DNA of 64,000 nt, taken from NCBI GenBank assembly GCA_030435675.1, contig CM059623.1, positions 16,452,205-16,516,204 of the forward strand, in the 5' to 3' direction. Shown here in pieces: positions 32,722 to 41,022 of the stretch (its first letter is position 1; each line of letters begins with the position of its first letter). A model generated the notes under the pieces. It did no database searches, was not told where the DNA came from, and saw only the letters and a list, made by a program, of their open reading frames with translations. The position numbers and the translations under genes were made by a program. This DNA is from Steinernema hermaphroditum (lineage: Eukaryota > Nematoda > Chromadorea > Rhabditida > Steinernematidae).

Positions 32722-33807
32722 GATCGGATTATTTCCTGGTGGCAATGGCAACTGCAGTCTTCAACTACTCATTCCCAATCTTTTCCAACGGAAGGACGAT
32801 GTCAGGCTGCAATGTGAATCGGCGATGGCATTAATGGAAAACTCTACTCATGTCGTTCGTCCGTTCAAGTGTTCCATTAGTAGTACGCTCCCTCCAACAC
32901 CCGAGGTGCCTTCTGTTGTTGTACCTTCTCTGACTCTCGAAACATCAGAGACTATAGAAACTATTCCTACTGATGATCCGAATGAAAATGCAGAAACGAG
33001 TGACGATATTGCAAATGAATCAGTTGAGTCGTAAAACTTATGTTTTAATGCGGAACATTCGTCTTGGAAACGCTTCTTGTGGGCCACTATCTCAAACGAT
33101 GTTTATTAGCAACCCTCGTTTTTTTATACGTAGTAGAACTAATGCATCTGTTTTCAGTCGAGGATACCAAGGATAATGAAGAAAAGCCCAAGAGGCGACC
33201 CGAAGAGCACCAGGAGGGCACCGTCGTGTTTGCGCTATCCGACGTCTCCGCAGGATGGTTCCGTCAAATTGAGCAGCGAAAACACAAGCTGTAGTACTGC
33301 TTCGGGTGGAAGCGAAAGTTCGCCTACTTCTGGGAGATGTTGAAACGCTCTCCTGTACCTCTGGAGGCTGAAATTACCTACGAAGAGTTTTGTACCGACT
33401 GTCACCAGTGTCGTCCAGCCGTTATTTAAGAGAAGCCCAAATGGCGCTGGTGGCACATGTTCACCGGAACTCCAAAGTAATGTCTAGCAGATCTTCATAT
33501 CGCTAACTTTATGTTCACGACTTATAGATATGCGAATCAGAAGGTCAGAAAAAATTATTCCAACGTCGTGAACGAGAACTGCGGTCGTCAGCACACGGAC
33601 AAGATCGTCGCATCAGATCTAATCATTGCCAATGTTCAAACCGATCAAAACGTATCAGAAACGAGTCGCCTTGAACTTATTGCTAACGATGGTGAAGCTA
33701 CTGGACGTTTCGATGTTATTTGCGATGGGTGGAAGCGGTGTCGCGAGAGCGCGACTTCCCTATCCACGGATCCTGATTTTTACTCGAAGAAGCTTACCGC
33801 CTCGAAG
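32722..33807 (+). pseudogene. Truncated, decayed copy of acylglycerol kinase (agk)
   Basis: Collinear with the intact agk gene from about 39771 to 40854, introns included, at very high identity. It lacks the first exon and the GGDGT catalytic block, and ends abruptly inside the last exon at 33807, losing the last ~56 codons. Two nonsense changes relative to the intact gene are seen: TGG to TAG at 33292-33294 and CAA to TAA at 33427-33429. Retained introns show a DNA-level segmental duplication, not a processed copy. The break point is followed by a T-run and then the SL1 sequence at 33844. Confidence 0.95.
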
Positions 33808-33843
33808 TTTTTTTTTGTTTACGTGTTTTGTTTTAATTATAAA

Positions 33844-33865
33844 GGTTTAATTACCCAAGTTTGAG
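33844..33865 (+). other. Exact SL1 spliced-leader sequence, copy 1
   Basis: All 22 bases equal the nematode SL1 leader (begins GGTTTAATTACCC, ends TTTGAG), followed at once by GT as a donor would be. It is preceded by a T-rich stretch and TATAAA. What follows (GTCTCCCACGAGG...) is not the SL1 RNA body (GTAAAC...), and I see no Sm-site-like AATTTTTGG in the next 100 nt. So this is not a canonical SL RNA gene. Confidence 0.95.
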
Positions 33866-33934
33866 GTCTCCCACGAGGTAGAGCTCTACGCTCCCTCAAA
33901 CATTGTTACGGCAAGACGTAACAGAAATCAAGAA

Positions 33935-35006
33935 TTGCGAAAGGTAGATGTACCTCAATATAGAACCCTTTCATACCATGCAAACCCAGAGAAGCGCTTG
34001 ATTCCATCAAATGCGACTTTGGTGATCGCTCCAGCGTCTTTAATCATGAGTGGGAAGATGAAATCAAGCGTACAGTCAAAACAGCAAAGCTGGACGTCCT
34101 TGTTTACCACGGACCGAAGAACCAGCGCGAGAAGAACCCGAGGCGCTTGGCGAAGAGCGATGTCGTCAATGATGAAGCTGATGAAGAAATTAAATAAATA
34201 AAAAAAAAGAAATAAAAAAAGGAATAAATTCAACGACTCTTCGGTTCTCGCAAAAATACTTTGGGATCGTGTCATCCTCGACGAAGCCCACAACATCAAA
34301 AACCGCACTTGAAACGCTTCCAGGGCCTGCTGCCGTCTTTCGGCAATCAACCGTTGGTGCTTGACCGGGACTCCCATCCACAACGAGCTATGGGATATTT
34401 TTTTCTCTCATTACGTAGATACAATAGCCGTCTTTTCTCGTATCACTCAATTCTACATTTACGTTCCTACGTGTAACTCCATTCGACGAAGAAAAACTTT
34501 GGAAGGAATGCATTATGACAGGAAGTGCGCAAACTAAATCGACTTCTTGCCTAATTTGTATTCAATTGTAGGACATGGCGCTGAGTGTTTAAACACTTTG
34601 GTGAAGGGTCTGCTCATGCGTAGAACCAAAGCGCAAATCGACACGGAAACGCAGAAACCGTTGGTAGAGCTGAAGCCGCGAGTGCACACTGAGGTGGAAG
34701 TAGTTTTCGAGGGACTGGAGATGAGGGTGTACCAGCAAATGTTCTTAGCATCTCAGTAAGCTTCGATAGCTGAAAAAGCATAGTCTTCACGGAGTAATTT
34801 AGGCAGCAAGTTAAACAGCTGTTGACAAACCAAGAAGATATGGAAAGTTACGGCATGATCGGACGCCAGAAGAACAATGGGGCGGCCATCGCCGTTCAAA
34901 ACCCTTCATGTTCAATTCACAAAATAAGATCGCAAAATGCCGTGATAATTTCCAGCGCATGAACTGCATTTTGGTCGTACTCCTAAAACTGCGTCAAGCG
35001 TGCGTC
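33935..35006 (+). pseudogene. Decayed fragment A of a TTF2/lodestar-like SNF2 ATPase
   Basis: Reading across small gaps it encodes SNF2 blocks: SNATLVIAPASLI (motif Ia region), VYHGPKNQREKNPRR, WDRVILDEAH (motif II, DEAH), [15 protein letters not shown] (motif III), LMRRTKAQIDTE and LEMRVYQQMF. This layout is that of transcription termination factor 2 / Drosophila lodestar. It is broken: TGG to TGA near 34311, a TAA near 34532, an A-rich insertion/expansion at ~34190-34230 and an internal deletion before it compared with fragment B. Homology to fragment B runs at an offset of about 1180 bp and ends near 35006. Confidence 0.85.
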
Positions 35007-35235
35007 CTGTTGCGCGCTGACCACACGCATCGACTCTGTGTTCAAATTGACCGTCTGTGTCTCACCACGATTGGTCACCGTACTTGTCTGCACGTTGTCT
35101 ATGCTGTCTAGGCTAGCGACCGCTCTCCGTCTTATCTGGCATTTAGCCACCGCGCTGTTGACTTGATGTTCTGAGCACGCGCTCATCTCCATTACGTGCC
35201 GTGCTCATGATTGTTCGTGCCTTGTTGTATATAAA

Positions 35236-35257
35236 GATTTAATTACCCAAGTTTGAG
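35236..35257 (+). other. SL1-like sequence, copy 2 (21/22)
   Basis: Identical to SL1 except the second base (GA for GG), again followed by GT and preceded by TATATAAA. The next ~50 nt resemble those after copy 1 (TCCCAC, ACGCTCCCTCAA, TTGT, GGCAAGAC). It sits directly upstream of ATPase fragment B. Confidence 0.92.
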
Positions 35258-35310
35258 GTATCCCACAGGGCTGAGCATAACGCTCCCTCAATACTTGTTG
35301 TGGCAAGACA

Positions 35311-36590
35311 CAATCGTCATCACGACATACAGGCTCGTTGCCACCGAGCTTGTATCGAAGGATCTGATAGATGATGAAGCTGATGAAGAGCAGAAGGGAC
35401 GGCGCAAATTCAACGACACTTCGGTTCTCGCCCGAGTGCTTTGGGATCGTGTCATCCTCGACGAAGCCCATCAAATAAAAAACCGCACTTGGAACGCTTC
35501 CAGGGCCTGCTGCCGTCTTTCGGCAATCAACCGTTGGTGCTTGACCGGGACTCCTATCCACAACGAGCTATGGGATGTTTTTTCTCTCATTAGGTAGATA
35601 CGATAGCCGTCTTTTCTCGTATCACTCAATTCTACATTTAGGTTCCTACGTGTAACTCCATTCGACGAAGAAAAACTTTGGAAGGAATGCATTATGACAG
35701 AAAGTGCGCAAACTTAATCGACTTCTTGCCTAATTTGTATTCAATTGTAGGACATGGCGCTGAGTGTTTAAACACTTTGGTGAAGGGTCTGATCATGCGT
35801 AGAACCAAAGCGCAAATCGACACGGAAACGCAGAAACCGTTGGTAGAGCTCAAGCCGCAACAATTCGCTGAAGTGGAAGTAGTTTTCGAGGGACTGGAGA
35901 TGAGGGTGTACCAGCACATATTCTTAGCATCTCAGTAAGCTTCGATAACTGAAAAAGCGTGGTTTTTACGGACTAATTTAGGCATCAAGTCAAACAGCTG
36001 TTGATAAACCAAGAAGATATGGAGCGTGACCACATGATCAGACGCCAGAAGAGCAATGGAGCGGCCGTCGCCGTTCAAAATCCCTTCATGTTCAATTAAA
36101 AAAATACGATCGCCAAAAGCCGTGATAATTTCCAGCGCATGAACTGCATTTTGGTCGTACTCCTAAAACTGCGTCAAGCGTGCGTACATCAATCTTGACG
36201 CTTTCGACACACTTGGCGGAGAAAACGACCCCACTGATCTCAACCGTGAACTCGCCGAAATGTCTATTGCTGGAGACGAACTGGCCAAGCAGATCTCTTC
36301 GGACGGCGCCGGTGGTGACATTTCCGAACAAGTGACATGGGCGACAAGTGCGTGATCGTCAGCCAGTGGACTTCGATGCTCAATATTGTGGAGCGCCACC
36401 TGAAGCGACGCGATGTTTGCTACACATCAATCACCGGAGCGATTCCTACGGAAGATCGCCAGGCGCGGGTGGACAGCTTCAACGTGCCCGACGGCGAAGG
36501 AACTCTCGAAGGAACCCAAGGAGCATTGTTCCTCTTCGATCTAAACAAGCCTGTGGAACGAGCAGCTGCTTCCTCTGGCCGACCGTACTG
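35311..36590 (+). pseudogene. Fragment B of a TTF2/lodestar-like SNF2 ATPase
   Basis: A better preserved tandem relative of fragment A, beginning mid-domain at VITTYRLVATELVSKDL. Blocks follow in order: [37 protein letters not shown], an intron (~35594-35670), [35 protein letters not shown], then the second RecA lobe GDKCVIVSQWTSMLNIVE and TSITGAIPTEDRQARV. The frame shifts between SEQVTW and GDKC near 36337 and the protein is lost after about 36590. The walker A/ATP-binding N-terminal part is missing, so it cannot be a working ATPase. No start codon of its own is apparent. Confidence 0.85.
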
Positions 36591-36716
36591 AAGAACTCAA
36601 AGTTTATTTACGCATTGTGTTATTGCGATGTTTAAATTTCAGTACAGGTTTATGACGAATGCGTAGTTGTTTCTATTCTGCTAGATTTTATGATGGCGGA
36701 GATTACAGCAAAATCG

Positions 36717-37850
36717 GGCTCTATTAGCAAACAGTGGCCAAAAGTCGGAACAGTGGCCAAAAGTATTTTTGAATGGCCAAAAGTCGGAACAGTGGCCAAA
36801 AGTATTTTTTTAAAGCCAAAAGTCGGAACAGTGGCCAAAAGTAATTTTCGATGGCCAAAGGTCGGAACAGTGGCCAAAAGTATTTTTCGATGGCCAAAAG
36901 TCGGAATAGTTACTAAAAGCATTTTATCAATAACATATAACCAATAACATAAATAACAACAGAATATTAATCATCTTCCTCGGACTCCTCTTCGGACTCC
37001 TCTTCGGGCTCCTCTTCGGGTTCCTCGTCAGGCTCTTCGTCGAGCTCTTCGTCGAGCTTCGGAGCCCTCTTCGGAGCTGGGCTTCTTTCTTTGGCGTCTC
37101 CGGGGTGTTGCGGGCGGTGGGGCGTAGACGTGGACGACCACGGGGATGGAGAGGTTTTGGTTCAGGTGGTTGTTTCCACCCGTGATGCGCCCTCCGTGGA
37201 CGCCACCATGGCGCATGCCGCCATGGCGTGTGCCCCCGTGGCGGTACGAACCGCCACTGATGTCTGCGGCGACATCAGTGCCTTCCATGGATTGCTTGTC
37301 AATCAGCCACAATGCACCAAGGGGACGTGCAGTTCCGGGCAGTTCCGCCTTCACAGGGCTAAGGGAGTCGTAGATGGATTCCAGGTGGGATATTGTTGTC
37401 TAAGAACAGCAACACCCGAACGACACCTGTCCGTCGCCGCGGTGGTCGAGTCCGGTCAACAACAACTGCGCCCTCTCGTCGGTCTTCTTCCAGACAACGT
37501 ACACATCGAAACAAGAAAACAAAGAAGAATAACTGATGTGCTGTTAAGTTCTGAATGTTCTGAAATACCTGTTCTATGCAGTATATATGCTGGTTGATTG
37601 ACATTTGAAAAATTGTGATAAAATAGTTTTGGCTTTAAAAAAATACTTTTGGCCACTGTTCCGACTTTTGGCCATCGAAAATTACTTTTGGCCACTGTTC
37701 CGACTTTTGGCTTAAAAAAAATACTTTTGGCCACTGTTCCGACTTTTGGCCATTCAAAAATACTTTTGGCCACTGTTCCGACTTTTGGCCACTCATAATT
37801 ACTTTTGGCCTTCGAAAAATACTTTTGGCCACTGTTCGCTAATAGAGCCC
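36717..37850. mobile_element. Fold-back (FB-like) element with tandem-repeat arms
   Basis: The left arm 36717-36934 and right arm 37628-37850 are inverted copies. Each arm is itself a tandem array of about five ~40-bp units built from GGCCAAAAGTCGGAACAGT and GGCCAAAAGTATTTTT. The outer ends match (GGGCTCTATTAGC on the left, GCTAATAGAGCCC on the right). The ~690-bp centre is unrelated and GC-rich. This architecture (long inverted arms made of direct repeats, unrelated loop) is that of fold-back transposons. No transposase is seen, so it would be non-autonomous. Confidence 0.85.
36968..37604 (-). CDS. Coding-like segment in the fold-back loop, unrecognised
   Basis: On the minus strand the loop has several long overlapping open frames. 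The most protein-like end reads KERSPAPKRAPKLDEELDEE followed by DEEP/EEEP/EEES repeats to a TAA at 36968-36970, an acidic tail as in nuclear chaperones. Upstream frames contain Arg/Pro-rich (HPRGRPRLRPT) or His-Gly-Gly-rich (RHGGTRHGGMRHGG) sequence. I cannot join these into one frame without an unseen intron or frameshift, and I recognise no family. It could be captured host gene material. Confidence 0.25.
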
Positions 37851-37882
37851 AAAATCGCAGAGGTTGCTTGGACACTCCTTCT

Positions 37883-38128
37883 CGAAAAGCAACTGTCAAA
37901 TCTACCATACGCGACCCTCTCATTTCAGGGTAAGCACTTTGGGAAACCGACGTCTGCAAAAGTGAAGTGACACGTTGATTTGTTTTGACTTTGCCGCGGT
38001 GCTGACGTCATGTCACCTCTTGTTATGCGATGAATTAAAATGACCCTACGGCTTTCAGACCTATGGCCCTCCTGTGGAACGCCACTTGTTGACTCCGTTT
38101 CTGGAAATTGGCGGAACGCATTTCTCTC
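37883..38128 (+). repeat. Direct repeat, copy 2 (partner at 31919-32165)
   Basis: Shares its whole length with copy 1 apart from short indels. It starts 33 bp after the fold-back element and ends about 260 bp before the immp-1 start codon, so it may be the original immp-1 upstream region from which copy 1 was duplicated. Confidence 0.85.
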
Positions 38129-38390
38129 CATTTTTGTTCTTATTGATCCCGTTATTTATTTGGCTGCTCGGATGGTGAGCTCGTATTTTGATGTATGTCT
38201 CCCAGAAGTCTGCTCATCTGCGTTGGGAATTTTTCTCAGCAAAACAAGATAAATCTTGATGTACTTCATTATCTGTTAAGCATAAGGATTTTCTGATTTC
38301 TAGGCAAATTTTCACTTGCTTCGTCTTCGTGGTTTATCAGTTTTGTTCTCTGCGGTTGGAGTTGTTTAATCATGTGGTTATATGTTCCAG

Positions 38391-38882
38391 ATGACGGTCA
38401 CAAAATCAACGTTCTGGAGAACAGTGCGCCGCTGCGTCTACGTTTACTGCGGAATCGAAGTCATCGGAACTCACGTCGGTGAGCTTCTCTACTGTACCGG
38501 CGTTTCGATGCACCCGACTATCCTCCATGGTGACCTCGTCATCGCCGAACGCCTGTCAGTGAAGCTAGGAAATGTACACCGCGGCGACATCGTTGGAGTC
38601 CTCTCACCTACTGATGGAAGTCTGATTTGTAAACGCCTTACACATAAGCAACTCGATCGGATATATGACTGTGAGCTACTACCGAAAGGGAGAGTGCCTC
38701 GCGGACACAGTTTCGTCCAGGGAGACAATACGATGTCGTCAACGGACTCACGCATTTTCGGGCCTGTTCCCGATGGCCTCGTTGAGGTTCGGCTTGTCTT
38801 AAGAATTTGGCCGTTGAACCGTTTTGGCTGGATGTCAAACCATTGGTTTTGGGAGAAGAGCGAGGATTCCAGTTCGCTTTGA
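38391..38882 (+). CDS. immp-1: Mitochondrial inner membrane protease subunit 1
   Basis: An S26-family (signal peptidase I-like) protease that removes sorting signals of intermembrane-space proteins. Single exon of 163 residues; the ATG follows an acceptor directly (ATATGTTCCAG). An N-terminal hydrophobic segment lies at ~15-35. The catalytic serine is in GVSMHPTI and the general-base lysine in ICKRL. GDIVGVLSPTDGSL and the C-terminal box HSFVQGDNTMSSTDSRIFGPVP match family box E (GDN...DSR...GPV/I). RIWPLNRFGW ends the fold as in human IMMP1L. It is the first of three genes in the same orientation with short gaps. Confidence 0.95.
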   Translation: MTVTKSTFWRTVRRCVYVYCGIEVIGTHVGELLYCTGVSMHPTILHGDLVIAERLSVKLGNVHRGDIVGVLSPTDGSLICKRLTHKQLDRIYDCELLPKGRVPRGHSFVQGDNTMSSTDSRIFGPVPDGLVEVRLVLRIWPLNRFGWMSNHWFWEKSEDSSSL

Positions 38883-39043
38883 ATCTCTGTTATGGTATGA
38901 ACGAGTGATGTTTGTATCGTTTCAATTGGTTGTGTCTTGCGCGTGCGCCCAGTTGCCTGTCTATCTCTCCCTGTGTGTTAGCGCTATTTCCATATGCCTA
39001 ACGTGTCGTGTACTTGTATTTTGCGTGTTCGTTTTTATATAAA

Positions 39044-39065
39044 GGTTCAATTACCCAAGTTTGAG
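39044..39065 (+). other. SL1-like sequence, copy 3 (21/22), between immp-1 and agk
   Basis: Identical to SL1 except T to C at base 5, followed by GTCTCCC exactly as copy 1, and preceded by TTTTTATATAAA. It lies 182 bp upstream of the agk ATG. A GTAAAC, the sequence that follows SL1 in true SL1 RNA, occurs about 15 nt further on (39080s). No Sm-site-like sequence is seen after it. Confidence 0.92.
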
Positions 39066-39246
39066 GTCTCCCGAACAAGGGTAAACTCCCCGCTTAGCAA
39101 CCGGGTCGAGTCTAAATCATAACAATCTCTTCAGGTTAGATAAATGTCTTTCACCGGTGTGCCTATCCGTGATCGTGTTCTCCGTGATCTTCGGTTGCTA
39201 TCTGTCCTCACTCACTCTCTTTCTCACAAATCCGCACTCCTTTCAG

Positions 39247-41022
39247 ATGGCGACGATCGTCACCAAAGTGGGCAACGCCGGAAAGACGCTGTGGCGTCAT
39301 AAAAAGAAGACTGTCGCCGCCGGTGTGGCGTTGTTTTATCTGGGCGACTGGTTAAACCAACTTCGTAGGGAGTCACATATTCGTGCGCTGTATGCGAAGG
39401 AGGCGTTGAAGTTCGGACAGTTTCCTATATCCGCTGAGAACACTCCTCGTCGTGTGACGGTATTGGTGAATCGTGATGCAAACGAGCGCCACGTGAACGA
39501 CAAATTCACAAAGAACGCTTTACCGTTGCTTCATTTGGCCGGAATTCAGGTAACATCTACTTCTTTTATTTGCGCGAAAACTGAATGCTTATTCCAGGTC
39601 GATATCATCAAAGTTGAATCACCGGATCAGATGCGTTCAATTGCTTCCGTAATCGATAATACCGAGACTGACGCCGTTTTCATTGTTGGTGGTGACGGAA
39701 CCCTCGCTGAGTTCCTTACCGGAATGTTTGCTGAACGAAAGCCTGAACTGATCAGCACTATAGTTCCAATTGGATTATTCCCTGGTGGCAATGACAACCG
39801 CAGTCTTCAACTACTCATCCCCAATCTTTTCCAACGAAAGGACGATGTCAGGCTGCAATGTGAATCGGCGATGGCATTAATTGAAAACTCTACTCATGTC
39901 GTTCATCCGTTCAAGTGTTCCATTAGTAGCACGCTCCCTCCGACACCCGAGGTGCCTTCTGCTGTTGTACCTTCTCTGGCTATCGAAACCTCAGAGACTA
40001 CGGAAACTATTCCTACTGATGATCCGAATGAAAATGCAGAAACGAGTGACGCCATTGCAAATGAATCAGGTGAGTCGTAAAACTTATGTTTTAATGCGGA
40101 ACATTCGTCTTGGAAACGCTTCTTGTGGGCCACTATCTCAAACGATGTTTATTAGCAACCCTCGTTTTTTTTATACGTAGTAGAACTAATGCATCTGTTT
40201 TCAGTCGAGGATACCAAGGATAATGAAGAAAAGCCCAAGAGGCGACCCGAAGAGCACCAGGAGGGCACCGTCGTGTTTGCGCTATCCGACGTCTCCGCAG
40301 GATGGTTCCGTCATATTGAGCAGCGAAAACACAAGCTGTGGTACTGGTTCGGATGGAAGCGGAAGTTCGCCTACTTCTGGGAGATGTTGAAGCGCTCTCC
40401 TGTACCTCTGGAGGCTGAAATTACCTACGAAGAGTTTTGTACCGGTTGTCGCCAGTGTCGTCCAGCCGTTATTCAAGAGAAGCCCAAATGGCGCTGGTGG
40501 CACATGTTCACCGGAACTCCAAAGTAATGTCTAGCAGATCTTCATATCGCTAACTTTATGTTCACGACTTATAGATATGCGAATCTGAACGTCAGAAAAA
40601 ATTATTCCAACGTCGTGAACGAGAACTGCGGTCGTCAGCACACGGACAAGATCGTCGCATCAGATCTAATCATTGCCAATGTTCAAACCGATCAAAACGT
40701 ATCAGAAACGAGTCGCCTTGAACTTATTGCTAACGATGGTGAAGCTACTGGACGCTTCGATGTTATTTGCGATGGGTGGAAGCGGTGTCGCGAGAGCGCG
40801 ACTTCCCTATCCACGGATCCTGATTTTTACTCGAAGAAGCTTACCGCCTCGAAGATCGATCTGTTTGTGAAGTCGCTTCCCTCGTTTATTCCGAAACTGG
40901 CCATCGCTGGAGACTGGCGCACTCTTGAAGATTACTCGAACAGGAAGGTGCATATAGAGGCGACCGATAAGATTGTTCAGTTGTTTGTTCCTCGTCAGCT
41001 GAGGTTTGACCACGACTCGTAA
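39247..41022 (+). CDS. agk: Acylglycerol kinase, mitochondrial
   Basis: A lipid kinase of the inner membrane/intermembrane space (makes LPA and PA; in humans also a TIM22 subunit). Four exons (39247-39549, 39598-40069, 40205-40523, 40575-41022) join in frame to 513 residues. The ATG directly follows ACTCCTTTCAG. The N-terminus has WRHKKKTVAAGVALFYLGDWL, a membrane anchor aligning with WKKTTAGLCLLTWGGHWL in the human enzyme. The DAG-kinase catalytic glycine loop VFIVGGDGTLAEFLTGM is intact. Later family blocks: FALSDVSAGWFR, KHKLWYWFGW, a kinetoplast-like Ser/Thr/Pro acidic insert (VPSLAIETSETTETIPTDD), and C-terminal RKVHIEATDKIVQLFVPRQL. The insert is lineage-specific. A decayed partial copy lies 7 kb upstream. 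Gap to gbf-1 is 192 bp. Confidence 0.95.

Follow-up and report, generated by a model that had tools for sequence, protein, structure and literature searches.

In Brugia malayi, 120 copies of the spliced leader SL1 lie outside the arrays of spliced leader (SL) RNA genes, and 60 of these have a PAO element no more than 1 kb away; occasionally SL1 flanks a PAO element in the same orientation, and the inference drawn there is that expressed PAO RNA acquired leaders and then integrated (PMC7181701; this and the other sources are cited from the available portions of their text). The Ty3/Gypsy element Cer1 of Caenorhabditis elegans yields a spliced 2.4-kb mRNA with and without SL1 (PMC3315495), and in Echinococcus the long terminal repeats (LTRs) of ta-TRIM elements have mapped start and poly(A) sites and give a transcript that is cis-spliced to a trans-splice acceptor (PMC4558846). 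Here we describe three SL1 copies in a 64,000-nucleotide stretch of the genome of the nematode Steinernema hermaphroditum (GCA_030435675.1, contig CM059623.1, positions 16,452,205 to 16,516,204, forward strand; hereafter the window), together with their relatives across the genome. These copies lie, with near certainty, within LTRs of LTR retrotransposons, and SL1 is very probably the repeat (R) region of these LTRs, which have the order U3 (unique 3′ region), poly(A) hexamer, SL1, U5 (unique 5′ region).

As in B. malayi, SL1 is found outside the SL RNA arrays and beside retrotransposons, but here its place is within the LTR, where U3 meets U5 just downstream of a poly(A) signal; it is also found in Gypsy-type elements and marks points of recombination. 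The available text of PMC7181701 mentions none of these, nor a role as R region. Cer1 is likewise a nematode Ty3/Gypsy element with SL1, but on the short mRNA only: the 8-kb RNA does not undergo trans-splicing at that site, and the available text mentions no SL1 in the LTR (PMC3315495). The DinoSL relics of dinoflagellate retrogenes resemble the situation proposed here in being DNA-encoded leaders that passed through reverse-transcribed trans-spliced RNA, but belong to retroposed genes rather than LTRs (PMC6050394, PMC12014239), and for ta-TRIM no spliced leader within the LTR is described in the portion available (PMC4558846). Among the open-licence literature matches listed, no title or abstract opening places SL1 in an LTR or gives it the role of R region.

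A sequence-only reading of the window had drawn attention to the three copies, and they are real: one is exact (copy 1) and two differ by one base each (G2A in copy 2, T5C in copy 3; Table 1), far above the 0.01 matches at up to three mismatches expected from shuffling, and none of 100 shuffles gets to three. The flanks are also as that reading described them, with TATAAA directly 5′ of SL1 in all three copies (TATATAAA in copies 2 and 3), GT and then (C/A)TCCC directly 3′ of it in each, and 78% identity between copies 1 and 2 across 33838-33933 and 35230-35325. In none of the three (0 of 3) is the leader followed by a GTAAAC-like donor and the SL RNA body, which contains CCGCTCTTTCAA in loci such as L016, L089 and L147. 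Its observation that no copy continues as SL1 RNA is thereby confirmed and, because no SL RNA body follows, its option of variant SL RNA genes is rejected. Rfam gave no match in the window, a negative that carries no weight because loci with true SL RNA genes also went unmatched; ARAGORN found zero transfer RNA (tRNA) genes in the window, and a scan for bacterial-type promoters, which is not meaningful in this genome, found nothing.

Across the genome (90.6 Mb, 60 contigs) there are 367 SL1 matches at up to two mismatches and none to the reversed control. Our census comprised 104 places at which exact SL1 is followed by GT and a non-A base (74), by A, C or T (12) or by GTA and a non-A base (18); it left out SL1 + GTAA, the class that includes ordinary SL RNA genes, and SL1 + GA, GC or GG. 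Flanks were read for all but three places (those three, among the 74, on contig C5). Among 97 distinct sites read, at up to three mismatches, the body marks 6 as SL RNA genes and leaves 91 outside that class. These 91 are not independent, since both ends of full-length elements are included, and were grouped by flank similarity into 11 lineages (a looser clustering, which gave 2, was replaced). The genome search that the sequence-only reading proposed has found SL1 outside SL RNA genes, with the boundaries and target-site duplications of mobile elements.

The copies are alike on either side of SL1, and the similarity then ends abruptly. By motif, and taking the best of a few candidate ends, LTR ends could be assigned at 38 of 60 loci; four of the 22 unassigned loci have SL RNA genes. 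Of the assigned loci, 21 are solo LTRs flanked by perfect 5-bp duplications, 12 make up six full-length pairs sharing a duplication, and five are single or unclear. Within the six pairs the LTRs are 97.8-100% identical, and full-length relatives have a primer-binding site (PBS; TGGCGATCAG or TGGTGCATCGG) after the 5′ LTR and a GGGAGG-like polypurine tract (PPT) before the 3′ LTR. The earlier suggestion of a mobile element derived from an SL RNA gene, resembling a short interspersed element (SINE), is accordingly upheld as to mobility, defined boundaries and target-site duplications but not as to kind: the copies are solo or partial LTRs, and a SINE is rejected because LTR ends (TG...CA), PBS and PPT are present, with U5 in place of the SL RNA body. 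Its remaining suggestion, an SL1 exon encoded in cis and followed by a GT donor, would have a precedent in ta-TRIM in the case of copy 3, upstream of agk (PMC4558846). As a general function it is unsupported because 3 of the 11 lineage representatives have AT after SL1; at the level of sites GT follows in only 81 of the 91 (AT in 8, TT and CT in 1 each) and is not universal. Each window copy lies within an LTR.

SL1 pairs at most 12 kb apart are on the same strand in 19 cases and on opposite strands in 2 (among the 124 SL1 sites listed), and in relatives of the window copies retrotransposon proteins lie between the SL1-bearing LTRs. Two pairs enclose BEL/Pao proteins, namely Peptidase_A17, DUF1759 and DUF5641 at C1:4909927/4917588 and Peptidase_A17 with DUF1759 at C1:17737152/17746843. 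Others enclose Ty3/Gypsy-type proteins (DUF7083, aspartic protease, H2C2 and rve), an assignment made from protease and integrase profiles: L003/L004 has the protease in front and the H2C2/rve integrase last before the 3′ LTR, over the cut-off, and in L056/L057 the integrase is over the cut-off and the protease below it. A search of PDB sequences with a piece of the Pao gag gave no match. Leaders with a single G (a non-G base before GTTTAATT) occur at 20 places, and the 6 of them that were read are all in LTR context. The pairs L058/L059, L096/L097 and C3:6872128/6874586 are only about 2.4 kb apart, have no integrase match listed between them and are possibly non-autonomous elements. On C9, Pao matches and one-G SL1 sites recur every ~34.65 kb, and both are found again on C24 and C27, which suggests a large tandem array or assembly duplicates.

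Immediately before SL1 stands a poly(A)-signal hexamer, which ends 0-2 nt 5′ of the leader in 87 of the 91 sites (TATAAA 54, CATAAA 17, AATAAA 10, AGTAAA 2, GATAAA 2, AATACA 1, AATGAA 1; the other four have no listed form). Counted by lineage, it is present in 10 of the 11 representatives; the 14 control offsets tried gave 0, and shuffles predict 0.14. Because cleavage usually falls 10-25 nt past the hexamer, the RNA would end inside or just after SL1. All seven forms belong to a list of 12 given for human (PMC3053588). Further upstream in U3, between -50 and -7 from SL1, CGTG occurs in all 11 representatives and 87 of the 91 sites, and CGTGT in 8 of the 11 (shuffle mean for this word, 0.76); as the best five-letter word in shuffles averages 5.7 and reaches 9, the CGTGT count is at most suggestive.

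Two observations concern the region 3′ of the leader. In 28 of the 91 sites CCCGCGTGGCA (at most one mismatch) lies 14-81 nt 3′ of SL1, for instance in the Pao-like loci L010 (1538-1548), L022 and L024; two of the lineages with it have Pao proteins, and controls, the reverse complement in the same place and the motif in the 120 nt upstream, gave 0 each. We take this motif to be the reverse complement of the anticodon arm of tRNA-Gly(GCC), and the PBS TGGTGCATCGG presumably fits the 3′ end of tRNA-Gly; by analogy with the anticodon-loop contact of human immunodeficiency virus, the motif is possibly a second primer contact. In L056 (1501-1620) the U5 sequence CCTCAAAC is complementary to the end of SL1, GTTTGAGG, and pairs with it in the RNA fold; folding of R-U5 gives a z score of -2.49 for L056, and -0.14 for L010 and -0.63 for L003, which are not outstanding.

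We consider it reasonably probable, judging from these arrangements, that the SL1 at the 5′ end of the genomic RNA is added by host trans-splicing and the one at its 3′ end comes from the LTR, and the balance likewise tips towards host trans-splicing as the source of SL1 in each cycle. The element transcript would start in U3 and be trans-spliced by the host SL1 small nuclear ribonucleoprotein at the terminal AG of the encoded leader (GTTTGAG|R, with R here a purine), so that the genomic RNA would begin with host SL1; a purine follows SL1 in 10 of the 11 representatives, fitting AG|R. Cleavage at the 3′ end would fall a few bases past the poly(A) signal, either within the encoded SL1 or immediately beyond it, and minus-strand strong-stop DNA, made up of U5 and host SL1, would pair with the encoded SL1 at that end. 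SL1 would therefore be the repeat that enables first strand transfer, renewed by the host in every cycle. Trans-splicing now and then at a neighbouring AG would leave footprints in the form of SL1 + TTTGAG or tandem SL1 and, as families would share one R, strand transfer could join U3 and U5 of unrelated elements. The wider picture, in which two superfamilies in one nematode exchanged a self-encoded R for the host leader, the LTR keeps a landing copy behind its poly(A) signal and SL1 serves as a common recombination point of the mobilome, is put forward tentatively, at somewhat short of even confidence.

Mosaics of this sort are present. In a pairwise comparison of 87 sites (L133 left out), with U3 taken as two 50-nt blocks whose all-pair median identities are 49% and 57%, L014 and L018 are 100% identical in U5 and 54% and 65% in U3, L024 and L071 98% in U5 and 52% and 58% in U3, and L083 and L085 100% in U5 and 56% and 70% in U3. 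Conversely, L076 and L122 share 98% of U3 beside SL1 and 67% of U5. Copy 3 of the window is itself composite, its U3 being like that of L078 (77% in both blocks), whose U5 is only 54% alike, and its U5 like that of L123 (94%), whose U3 is only 51% and 55% alike. Of 422 pairs alike in U5, 67 differ in the 50 nt of U3 nearest to SL1. Recombination has joined U3 and U5 from different lineages, with the switch at SL1, and strand transfer within R would leave such mosaics.

Candidate footprints are found in the leader as well, each of them weak alone. SL1 with an extra TTTGAG occurs at exactly three places genome-wide, all LTRs, in two lineages (L005; L140 and L142), and would be the product expected of splicing at CCCAAG|TTTGAG within the encoded leader. 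L133 has a tandem SL1, the sole case at up to two mismatches at the junction, as expected if splicing used AAAG|GTTTAATT. The T5C leader is found at three places, copy 3 and two SL RNA genes, and this shared variant may be a trace of trans-splicing. Some of this could also arise if SL1 is R but the RNA starts at the encoded SL1 from the element's own promoter, the leader being mimicked without trans-splicing, as a start site, as a promoter element like that of SL RNA genes, or for translation; we regard this as unlikely, although it is the strongest competitor. In Ascaris, the SL sequence acts as a promoter element of the SL RNA genes. The constant position where U3 meets U5, the hexamer before SL1 and the mosaics suit such a start equally well, and the one-G leaders and the tandem SL1 of L133 fit slips at the RNA 5′ end. 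A TATA-like element near -30, however, is seen in just 1 of 91 sites (TATAWA starting at -35 to -22 from SL1), although promoters of other types may serve; neither the TTTGAG footprints nor the T5C match to SL RNA genes is predicted, and exact identity over 22 nt in 11 lineages whose flanks do not cluster would need strong selection. This exactness is partly ascertained, because the sites were mostly found by exact SL1.

With U5 in place of SL1 as the query, a Pao U5 recovered 24 places, 13 of them with exact SL1 (including the tandem L133) and the other 11 with one-G leaders (3), one-G + TTTGAG (1), one to three changed bases (3) or unrecognisable or partial leaders (4). A Gypsy-type U5 gave 54 candidates, of which 40 were scored: SL1 is exact in 31, has one change in 4 and is rearranged, partial or absent in 5, against 18.6 of 40 exact if it decayed at the U5 rate; the copies form subfamilies and are not independent. 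This retention bears on the possibility that reverse transcription of trans-spliced RNAs happened on one or a few occasions in ancestral elements and that SL1 is now passive and spread by recombination, a reading close to the proposal made for B. malayi (PMC7181701). The same U5 on differing U3 backbones does show exchange, and SL1 is present in only a minority of recognisable elements; yet exact SL1 is commoner than expected from the divergence of U5, and 10 of 11 representatives retain a poly(A) hexamer at the edge of SL1 though its letters vary, so that such a one-off capture appears distinctly improbable. Least credible, to the point of being remote, is that SL1 is a core-promoter spacer, with TATAAA as TATA box, a start near GTNTCCC and R beginning after SL1: 54 of 91 sites do have a TATAWA that starts between -9 and -6 relative to SL1, ~30 nt before the start of U5, but only 4 of 11 representatives have it, others showing AATAAA, AATGAA, AATACA, AGTAAA or CATAAA, all of them poly(A)-signal variants that make poor TATA boxes.

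Several points weigh against host trans-splicing with strand transfer at SL1. GAG is a poor acceptor. At distances of up to 10 kb, SL1 on the same strand (exact or one-G) accompanies only 4 of 62 Peptidase_A17 matches and 10 of 58 rve matches, with two pairs among the ten that share an element; opposite-strand SL1 was found near 2 and 1, respectively, in counts without 10 of the 62 and 12 of the 58, and a weak match among those 12 rve matches, on re-examination, has a one-G SL1 3 kb upstream. Because so few matches have SL1 nearby, most recognisable elements lack it or carry an altered form: SL1-bearing elements are a minority, or the others carry changed leaders. Nor is SL1 the sole switch point, because U3 is a mosaic too: among 274 pairs similar in its last 50 nt, 27 differ in the preceding 50 nt. 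L076 and L122 retain shared parts of U5, and of the 17 pairs that are similar in U3 but not in U5, 15 involve L117 and the other two L104. The footprints, too, can have other origins: SL1 + TTTGAG could be chance tandem duplication, slipped strand transfer would also give the tandem SL1 of L133, and T5C, a single substitution, could be decay.

In the window the three copies carry no retrotransposon proteins, their U5 groups with Gypsy-type loci, and they are best read as relics, solo or truncated LTRs of retrotransposons (Table 1). Copy 3 has a perfect 5-bp target duplication; that of copy 2 is imperfect (CGTCC / CGTCA, 4 of 5 positions), and this LTR is 90% identical to L015 and 91% to L082. 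Copy 1 is truncated and without a target duplication, and the sequence just before it (33739-33809) starts like a Pao LTR (TGTCGCG...CGCGACTTC).

Table 1. Retrotransposon relics with SL1 and adjoining genes in the window
Feature	Position	Strand	Remarks
Copy 1, final 114 bp of LTR	33810..33923	+	U3 end, SL1 and U5 ending ACGTAACA
TATAAA of copy 1	33838..33843	+	poly(A)-signal hexamer abutting SL1
SL1 of copy 1	33844..33865	+	exact; probable R region
Copy 2, nearly complete solo LTR	35008..35313	+	TGTTGCGC...GACACAA; right end decayed
TATAAA of copy 2	35230..35235	+	poly(A)-signal hexamer abutting SL1
SL1 of copy 2	35236..35257	+	G2A; probable R region
immp-1-like reading frame	38370..38882	+	Peptidase_S26; stop ends directly before left duplication of copy 3
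Target-site duplication, left (copy 3)	38883..38887	+	ATCTC
Copy 3, complete solo LTR	38888..39124	+	237 bp, TGTTATGG...CATAACA; LTR ends; between immp-1 stop codon and agk
TATAAA of copy 3	39038..39043	+	poly(A)-signal hexamer abutting SL1
SL1 of copy 3	39044..39065	+	T5C; probable R region
Target-site duplication, right (copy 3)	39125..39129	+	ATCTC
agk-like gene start	39247..40077	+	ATG at 39247 after TTTCAG; DAGK_cat in frame 39085-40080

The copy 3 LTR ends 122 bp before the start of agk, and its poly(A) hexamer (LTR with duplications, 38883-39129) lies ~155 bp past the immp-1 stop, where it may serve as the 3′ end of immp-1. The copy 2 LTR stands between the two units of a tandem duplication (34226-35005 and 35406-36185; spacing 1180 bp, parts 93-95% identical), which had been labelled SNF2 fragments; Pfam did not recognise the pieces of it that were tried. 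A separate inverted-repeat element at 36716-37850 has arms that are arrays of a 39-bp minisatellite unit, with AAAATC seen by eye on either side.

Genomic SL1 matches of the kind described here may mislead the annotation of trans-splice sites. If host trans-splicing indeed supplies the leader, its completion of a retroelement genome in each cycle would be a new solution to first strand transfer, and replication of the element would be tied to trans-splicing. It would also account for the recurrence of SL1 away from SL RNA genes in the genomes of at least two nematodes.

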